Shown here: positions 53,101 through 56,100 of the stretch, piece after piece
Layout of the letters: every line of letters starts with the position of its first letter
How positions within the stretch are numbered: position 1 is the stretch's first letter
From: Glandiceps talaboti
Taxonomy: Eukaryota > Hemichordata > Enteropneusta > Spengelidae
Assembly: GCF_964340395.1 (NCBI RefSeq)
Contig: NC_135566.1
Location: 6,113,501-6,177,500 of the forward strand
Reading direction: 5' to 3'
Length of the DNA: 64,000 nt
Position numbers and translations under genes: made by a program
Notes under the pieces: model-generated
What the model saw: the letters and a program-made list of their open reading frames with translations, nothing else
Told to the model about the DNA's origin: nothing
The model's database searches: none

Positions 53101-56100
53101 GGCAAGCAGCTGCCAGTACTTTTGATAACCTTCATAACACGATTGGTAAGTCTCAAAGATACATCTTTCTTTCCAGTCTCAGTAAACAGGTTTGTAAGGT
53201 TGGAACTGCAAATACAACGAGTTACACCAAAGTAAAGTACTTTCTCTATGTGCTACTCATTTATAGCATTCACATCAAGTGTAAAAGTATACTGTTTCAA
53301 TTGGTTTATTTACAAGCCTTGCATGTGGCCTTTCTAAGGTGGTCAATTAACAAATGAAACAGTATAGTTAAATGAAAGTATGTATGAAGTTTATTATTGG
53401 AACAGTGTTAATGTCAAATTTTTATCTCTCATTTCTTTCCCCAACCTTAGGCTCGCAAGCATTAGATGAAATCTTACCAACGTTGTTGAAACAGCTGAAT
53501 GATAAAGAAGTTGGAGAATATGCCCTAGATGGATTGAGGGAAGTGATGGCAGTTAAAAGTAGAGTTGTGTTACCTTATATGGTACCAAAGGTAAATACTG
53601 TCATCTTCTATGTGAAGGTCAAAGGTTACTGGGACAGTACATTAACTTCTAACCCCATCGAATGGGGTAACATAGATTGAGTTACAGCCCTTGCAAACAG
53701 TCTGGCACTTTTCAGCTGTAAATAAACAAAGAAACCACAATTATTTCAATGATATTGTTGAATACAGAGAGCATCCTATTGAGTTTCTTTATTTAAAAAA
53801 GTTGTTGAGATAAATGTACTCAGTCCAATAAAATGATAGATAACTGACATTTCGTGAATAACCCTTCTATGAGCTAAAGCCAAACACTACTGAAATTGTA
53901 GGAAATCTGTGATGTTTTGGGTAGAATGGAATAGAAAGGATACATTTTGAGGTTTTGTGATGTTTTTGATGTTAACCGCACAATGGTAATCAGACGGTAA
54001 CATTCACCCCTTATATGATTACTGGGAGATTATAAACTTGGTGGTAATATCGATGTATCTCAGTTAGTCAGCATGCAGGAAACTTACTATTACTTGTTTA
54101 CACCTGATAGCCCCACCAGTCAATATCAAAGTGTTGTATCATTTCTTTACAGCTGATAGCCCTACCAGTCAATATCAAAGTGTTATATCCTTTCTTTACA
54201 GCTGATAGCCCCACCAGTCAATATCAAAGTATTGTATCCTTTCTTTACAGCTGATAGCCCCACCAGTCAATATCAAAGTGTTATATCCTTTCTTTACAGC
54301 TGATAACCCCACCAGTCAATATCAAAGCGTTATATCATTTCTTTACAGCTGATAGCCCCACCAGTCAATATCAAAGTGTTATATCCTTTCTTTACAGCTG
54401 ATAGCTCCACCAGTCAATATCAAAGTGTTATATCATTTCTTTACAGCTGATAGCCCCACCAGTCAATATCAAAGTGTTATATCCTTTCTTTACAGCTGAT
54501 AGCCCCACCAGTCAATATCAAAGTGTTATATCATTTCTTTACAGCTGATAGCCCCACCAGTCAATATCAAAGTGTTATATCATTTCTTTACAGCTGATAG
54601 CCCCACCAGTCAATATCAAAGTGTTATATCCTTTCTTTACAGCTGATAGCCCCACCAGTCAATATCAAAGTGTTATATAACTTCTTTACTACTGATAGCC
54701 CCACCAGTCAATATCAAAATGTTATATCCTTTCTTTACAGCTGATAGCCCCACCAGTCAATATCAAAGTGTTATATCCTTTCTTTACAGCTGATAGCCCC
54801 ACCAGTCAATATCAGTGTTATATCCTTTCTTTACAGCTGATAGCCCCACCAGTCAATATCAAAGTGTTATATCCTTTCTTTACAGCTGATAGCCCCACCA
54901 GTCAATATCAAAGTGTTATATCCTTTCTTTACAGCTGATAGCCCCACCAGTCAATATCAAAGCATTAGCTATATTATCAGAAGTAGCTGGTGAAGCACTG
55001 ACCAGACATCTGAGTAGGATACTACCTGCTTTACTTGGTGCACTGGAAGAGACAGCTGACACAGATACAGAAACAGAGGTAAGGACATCAGTCTTATTTA
55101 CACATGGGCATCAGTCTTGTTTACTCAAGGACATGTCTTGTTTTTTTTTTTCAGGTTTTGTGATAGTATTGTAAAACTGGGGTGTGATTTGACAGATAGA
55201 TTTCACCTATATGTATGTTGTTCATTTTAGCCTTCACAAAATACTGACAAAATTTGTCTCAACATTTTCCATTATTATTTCAATAATATCAATAAAAAAA
55301 TTAGAATTTGTTTTCTGAAGAATTAGTAATTCTCGTTCATAACCTAATTTTATTATTTTCAGAATCTGAAACATTGTCAAACCCTGGTGTTGTCAGTGAC
55401 GGATGACCACGGAGTTAGGACCATTATGGATGAGTTACTGGGTGCTACATCTCGTAAAAACACGTCGTCCGGCATGAGAAAGGCTGCCGTTACAATTCTT
55501 AATGAACTTTGTACACAGAGTAAAGCAGACCTGTCGTCATATGTACCTTCATTGTTTACTGCTCTAATACGACTTTTTAACGATAGCGATAAACGAGTCC
55601 TGGAAACAAGTTGGAATGCTTTGAATGCAGTGGTCAAGGTATGTTTAACTGTAATGCCATTTTGAATTTTTCTACTGTGAACATATTCATTTTTTTCGCA
55701 CAAAAAGTTTTGTAGAAATAAAGTGTAGGTGATTCCATGTTGACATTGATTTATCTTGGTACAAACATTGTTTCATCGAAGTAAGTTTAGAGCCAACAAC
55801 CATACTGTATCAGTACTTTAGTATCATAAATAGGGTTAATGTTCAATCAGTCAGTTTATCAATCAACTCTTGTTCATTATCTATATTCGTATACAGAGAT
55901 TAGACACTGCAGAACAACTTCAACATATCAGTTCAGTAAGACAAGCTGTTAAATATATAGTTGATGATGTCAAAGGAGATGTCTTACCTGGTTTCTGTCT
56001 ACCCAAAAAAGTAAGTGTCCCTGTGTGTGTGTGTGTGTGTGTGTGTGTGTGTGTGTGTGTGTGTGTGTGTGTGTGTGTGTGTGTCAATGTGTGTCTGTGT

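Follow-up and report, generated by a model that had tools for sequence, protein, structure and literature searches.

A minisatellite of decoy 3′ splice sites in GCN1 of Glandiceps talaboti and further duplicated splice junctions in the same genome

The window analysed here is a 64,000-nt stretch of the genome of the hemichordate Glandiceps talaboti (C19:6113501-6177500), in which a preliminary description had recognised the gene GCN1. The assignment is borne out by the Pfam domain HEAT_GCN1 (E 1.4e-20) and by homology collinear with human GCN1. Forty-seven segments spread over 29.3–61.3 kb follow the order of human GCN1, with parts of the human protein left unmatched. Forty-five of the segments are tblastn matches, the ends of some having been trimmed manually; the other two (41330-41430 and 58560-58656) were derived from open frames and the intron model. 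The translated exons also match a 2,898-residue PDB chain (7.5e-28), yet the molecule name of that record is "Ribosomal protein L19", and therefore the identity leans on Pfam and on collinearity. Introns were modelled from sequence; 31 were obtained, of which 4 were set aside as unsure. The features around the exon that had been numbered 40, here the 38th of the 47 listed segments, are as follows.

53451..53590, forward strand: the preceding GCN1 exon, with the phase 0 donor AAG/GTAAAT
54083..54103, forward strand: flank upstream of copy 1, with the branch point-like consensus CTTAC and with AC in place of AG
54104..54934, forward strand: junction-spanning minisatellite of 17 units with 15 decoy acceptors that have AG (from unit alignment and TRF)
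54692..54740, forward strand: unit copy 13, in which TA replaces AG and the acceptor is lost (PWM -4.8)
54790..54836, forward strand: the 47-bp unit, with a 2-bp deletion within its exon-derived part
54935..55078, forward strand: the real GCN1 exon, identical to the unit consensus over its first 27 bases, with the donor GTAAGG at 55079

A head-to-tail array does abut the real exon, as had been described: 17 upstream units bring the copies of the exon start (CTGATA) to 18 between 54104 and 54935. A full unit consists of 27–28 nt of exon start and 21–22 nt of intron end. The length of 3n+1 claimed for the unit holds for the 16 units of 49 bp and fails for the single one of 47 bp; TRF reports a period of 49, 17.7 copies and 95% matches. 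The claim that each unit carries AG is likewise right for 15 of the 17 upstream copies and wrong for copy 1 (54104), which has AC, and copy 13 (54692), which has TA, so that AG stands ahead of 16 of the 18 exon starts, namely the real one and 15 decoys. The A of the CTTAC motif sits 18 nt before copy 1 (54104), and this upstream flank may once have held the original acceptor.

Among the 16 full-length units the mean pairwise identity is 96.0% and the minimum is 85.7%. Base differences in these units, the 47-bp unit being left out, number 3 of 432 in the exon-derived part vs 15 of 352 in the intron-derived part (Fisher P 0.001); counted by events, however, the lower variability of the exon-derived part is weak, as most of the intronic differences trace to a variant that has spread and to a multi-base change confined to a single unit. 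A search of the 590-Mb assembly (47 contigs) with the unit listed seven matches, all within the array and none at a second place; the search tool skips very common words, and the single location is thus not proof of uniqueness. The 17-fold array is far beyond chance, because an order-1 Markov shuffle of the control loci described below gave 0 duplication clusters vs 80 in the real sequence. Directly past the GT of the donor of the same exon, a separate 23-bp tandem repeat starts and occupies window positions 55081-55143.

The decoys had been said to have the same sequence as the true acceptor. The 20 preceding intron bases are indeed identical in 9 of the 15, and differ by 1–2 bases in the remaining 6. 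With a position weight matrix built from the 26 other acceptors of GCN1, the real site scores 8.3 and the decoys 7.4–8.6, while the 26 acceptors themselves range from 1.7 to 13.3 with a median of 7.7 when each is left out in turn. The earlier view of a choice among near-equal sites is therefore upheld, and the reading frame is open from the last acceptor (54935) only. It is also correct that every upstream acceptor leads to a premature stop (15 of 15), but the TGA of CTGATAG is not always that stop: the frame entered at decoy 54594 ends at 54678, and that entered at decoy 54886 ends at 54991. The stops precede several downstream junctions, a position from which nonsense-mediated decay is expected, and decay of such RNA is thus to be anticipated. 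Since only the copy next to the exon keeps the frame, functional mRNA must come from that copy; this is established by translation for the array at 54104, and would probably hold for the three other cases in GCN1 described next. No consensus yTnAy branch point-like motif lies 15–45 nt upstream of the last acceptor, although such a motif is present at this distance for 22 of the 27 GCN1 acceptors tested, the one at 54935 included. Candidate branch points of the last acceptor are GTTAT at -17, which departs from the consensus by one base, and CTGAT at -46. A GGG run was also looked for in the array and none was found.

Such a structure is not peculiar to this one intron: GCN1 contains three more junction duplications, and 10 of 127 control exon matches have one as well when read by eye. 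The three in GCN1 are these.

36518..36924, forward strand: a more diverged donor-side array of about 10 units of about 41 bp, comprising exon end and donor
56464..56705, forward strand: exon end and donor with a second copy 152 bp downstream at 84% identity, in which AT replaces GT and the donor is lost
58624..58705, forward strand: a 41-bp tandem duplication of exon end and donor

In the array at 36518 the true junction lies after 36537, and further donor-like GTAAGT/C sites follow after 36618, 36699 and 36777. The duplication at 58624 presents donors after 58656, modelled as the true one, and after 58697, both with a PWM score of 8.3. BLAST, run with the 30 GCN1 exons modelled from 40692 onwards, overlooked this duplication and gave way to a diagonal scan.

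The control exons were taken from the same genome as matches to the profiles Myosin_head (at least 78, a lower bound as 65 of 175 first-look candidates were scored), AAA_6 (89) and AAA_9 (57), at least 224 in total; the latter two we take to be domains of dynein heavy chains. Tested were the 127 matches flanked on each side by at least 1 kb, from 40 of 74 planned regions, among which two neighbouring pairs overlap by about 1.2 kb in all. Exon ends are here the ends of profile matches, so the edges are approximate. A local copy was flagged at 15 of the 127 matches, and inspection by eye left ten with a duplicated junction (7.9%, 95% interval 3.8–14.0%); with GCN1 included, the count becomes 14 of 174 (95% interval 4.5–13.1%). 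Seven of the ten are at donors and three at acceptors. They are found in L015, L017 (two), L018, L022, L030, L033, L035, L036 and L044, and for one of those in L017 the profile match spans both copies and leaves the true donor ambiguous. The flagged matches that were dropped are L021 and L049, which are exon copies without a junction, L028, a microsatellite, and L029 and L048, unclear by eye. The three further duplications within GCN1 and those in the control myosin and dynein genes are new.

In L022 (C12:13784259-13784599) the end of a myosin-type exon is followed by 10 tandem copies of the donor at offsets of 31–308 bp, 8 of them with GT, and this locus is a donor-side counterpart of the GCN1 array. 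Two more donor-side arrays lie in myosin-type genes, one of 68-bp units with five further copies that have GT (L036, C17:10726829-10727155) and one of 58-bp units with one further copy that has GT (L018, C12:393398-393575). At L015 (C10:23989212-23989737) a second copy of an acceptor junction lies 448 bp upstream; the two are separated by about 370 bp of other sequence, which may have been inserted into a former tandem duplicate.

Whether junctions attract such events can be judged from the background of local duplication. The 214,024 bases of the control loci contain 80 duplication clusters that together extend over 11.8% of the sequence, whereas one order-1 Markov shuffle per locus gave none. 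Ten control exon edges are spanned by clusters, against 18.9 ± 3.9 at random placement, and 2 of 300 shuffles were as low; this automatic ten is not the ten found by eye, since L029 and L048 are counted in it while L030 and one case of L017 are absent. In GCN1, 4 edges are spanned against 5.3 ± 1.8 at random placement. Cluster density is uneven, being 1.8 per 10 kb in window positions 1–28000 and 2.6 in the GCN1 stretch, with 6, 1 and 1 clusters in three neighbouring 10-kb stretches. It is conceivable that tandem duplication favours splice junctions, for instance through structures formed in transcription, and 4 of the 9 clusters in the GCN1 stretch do cross an exon edge. Nevertheless, the edges are spanned at or below the random rate in both sets, so junctions are not a preferred target and we hold the idea to be highly improbable. 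Short stretches are duplicated throughout the sample, and junctions are hit by chance. About half of the junction hits seem to be missing in the controls, whose exon edges are approximate, probably through selection, and this apparent deficit suggests that some junction-spanning duplications are costly. In just 1 of the 14 junction duplications is the offset of the nearest copy divisible by three (P 0.027 against one third, a comparison chosen after the data had been seen); a frame bias was not retained, as there is no clear difference from all control clusters, with 22 of 80 (Fisher P 0.18).

By its sequence, the GCN1 array can be assigned to a known type of structure, the "mirage" of amphioxus. 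According to the available passages of the source, mirages in the amphioxus genes Adh3, BflGb6 and BflGb9 are minisatellite-like tandem duplications of intron-exon boundaries, with splice signals in many but not all copies; RT-PCR suggests that they do not interfere with regular splicing, their copy number differs between haplotypes, and the clusters may seed new introns (PMC3087553). Correspondingly, the tandem units in GCN1 hold intron and exon sequence across the splice junction, as modelled from sequence; the array sits in the intron directly next to the authentic junction, unit 17 ending at 54934 and the exon starting at 54935; and AG is found in 15 of the 17 copies. As far as these passages go, BflGb6 also duplicates the 3′ end of an intron with the start of the exon, and amphioxus units are homogenised within a cluster like those of GCN1, while BflGb9 duplicates the 3′ boundary of an exon (PMC3087553). 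The scale differs, with 17 extra units in GCN1 against 6 and 3 in two BflGb6 haplotypes, and a unit of 49 bp against 150–160 bp in BflGb6 and 10–72 bp in Adh3 (PMC3087553, as excerpted). The GCN1 array moreover resides in another gene and probably another phylum, and is known from the sequence of one assembly. It is a large mirage, and the genome seems to be rich in such structures.

Human genes offer further parallels. In the excerpted text of PMC2630376, the 31-bp VNTR of CBS, c.1444_1467+7(16_21), spans an exon-intron junction, as does the GCN1 unit, and has a similar copy number of 16–21; it lies, however, on the donor side, with 24 exon and 7 intron bases as read from its name, and is length-polymorphic in people, whereas the GCN1 array is on the acceptor side. 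In a second CBS case, the duplicated junction of intron 7 and exon 8, it is mostly the distal copy that is spliced (PMC2630376, in the same excerpt, which calls the duplicated sites donors while the title it cites says 3′ splice sites). This 844ins68 duplication comprises 52 intron and 16 exon bases (PMC7490669, in part), and as in GCN1 a 3′ splice site is duplicated; the distal, exon-proximal copy is favoured (PMC2630376, PMC7490669, as excerpted), as is likely in GCN1. It is one duplicate and not an array, and a reference title credits G runs for the silencing; such silencing is not available to the GCN1 array because it is without a GGG run. Tandem repeats of minisatellite scale also occur at exon-intron boundaries of human duplicated genes, where, in the available text, they can generate alternative splicing and novel introns (PMC2812944), while the GCN1 array is known from sequence alone.

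A related route is intron gain at AG/GT proto-splice sites. There too, in the passages at hand, sequence with splice sites is tandemly duplicated, and decay shields weakly spliced new introns by hiding mis-spliced products (PMC2809761, PMC2891723). In that process, however, the new intron comes from a duplication within an exon (PMC2891723, PMC2809761, in part), whereas GCN1 has copies of an existing junction in the intron that this junction bounds, and no additional intron is seen. Intron gain by tandem duplication was rejected for GCN1: the array lies inside one intron, the exon body is in frame from the last copy, and the array holds no donor-grade site.

We consider it likely that the array is a mirage, a by-product of frequent short tandem duplication that is mostly tolerated and is not a regulator. 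It would have started when a short stretch across the 3′ splice site of the GCN1 intron was duplicated in tandem, and may have grown to 17 extra units by unequal exchange or slippage. The spliceosome would most likely favour the last acceptor through exon definition, in which the intact exon and its downstream donor favour the nearest acceptor, as the general principles of splicing and precedent suggest. Occasional use of a decoy leads to the premature stops found by translation and would then end in nonsense-mediated decay. Several observations weigh on the other side. The decoys are locally as strong as the real site, G-run silencing is unavailable to the array, and the last acceptor lacks the consensus branch point-like motif that most acceptors of the gene have. 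The alternative splicing published for human boundary repeats means that copies need not be silent, and the deficit of junction-spanning duplications in the controls also counts here. On precedent, preference for the last acceptor nevertheless appears the most likely outcome.

Alternatively, the array could act as a dosage device, each added decoy diverting transcripts to nonsense-mediated decay so that unit number sets the level of GCN1. All 15 decoys give premature stops with scores that match the real site, and an array that is young or homogenised, as the 96.0% mean identity indicates, is probably variable in length. The title of a reference on CBS, reportedly that of Lievers et al. 2001, links the junction VNTR to reduced CBS activity. 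Yet duplicated junctions are found at many unrelated exons, no more often than random placement predicts, and RT-PCR of published mirages, in the available passages, suggested that regular splicing is undisturbed (PMC3087553). Tuning of GCN1 dosage may be possible, but we do not favour it and regard it as unlikely. The exon-derived part ahead of the GT within the unit measures 27 nt, a multiple of three, and the units might thus be read as optional microexons (LIAPPVNIK) that add in-frame repeats to GCN1. The in-unit donor AAA/GTGTTA scores -1.8 and the best GT of the array 0.2, whereas none of 27 real donors falls below 8.3; on this donor score the microexon reading was rejected, and it retains almost no credibility. 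Finally, the array or its length could be an artefact of assembly, given that the mitochondrial contig C40 of the same assembly repeats COX1 three times. The distinct unit variants in irregular order, the extent of less than 1 kb and the more diverged junction array in the same gene speak against this, and an artefact is very unlikely.

Choice by the spliceosome among identical neighbouring sites appears to have been studied mostly on engineered duplications and on a small number of human alleles, and an intronic VNTR of ABCA7 is said to be the subject of a paper on splicing. With about 8% of sampled exons having a duplicated junction, this genome would provide many natural settings in which the parts played by exon definition, distance and decay could be compared. 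A bolder generalisation, speculative and in our judgement doubtful, is that about 1 in 12 exons (14 of the 174 sampled) has copies of its own junction, some with 10–17, which by extrapolation would amount to thousands of natural competition tests obeying a general rule of "the copy next to the exon body", and that rare losses to decay would make heritable, length-variable small changes of dosage, in GCN1 as elsewhere. For gene annotators the results are a warning that exon edges in this genome can have near-identical intronic copies. They also extend mirages, a name met in print, in the available text, for amphioxus only (PMC3087553), to a hemichordate and to a housekeeping gene.

Elsewhere in the window, a 31-bp minisatellite of 33 copies occupies 20896-21922, and read on the minus strand most of its units hold GTGGGTATGT. 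An open frame of 366 aa at 18932-20032 presumably resembles the C-terminal part of a retrotransposon polyprotein. On contig C40 the COX1 copies are 15,435 bp apart, and the contig is probably a concatenated assembly of the circular mitochondrial genome. Given the codes known from animal mitochondria, codon use on this contig fits a hemichordate and does not fit amphioxus. The COX1 frame contains TGA and no other stop. In the mitochondrial genes of C40, ATA stands mostly at positions that we take to be Ile, and AAA, AGA and AGG are absent from the bodies of COX1 and ND2, being present only upstream of the COX1 start as placed.
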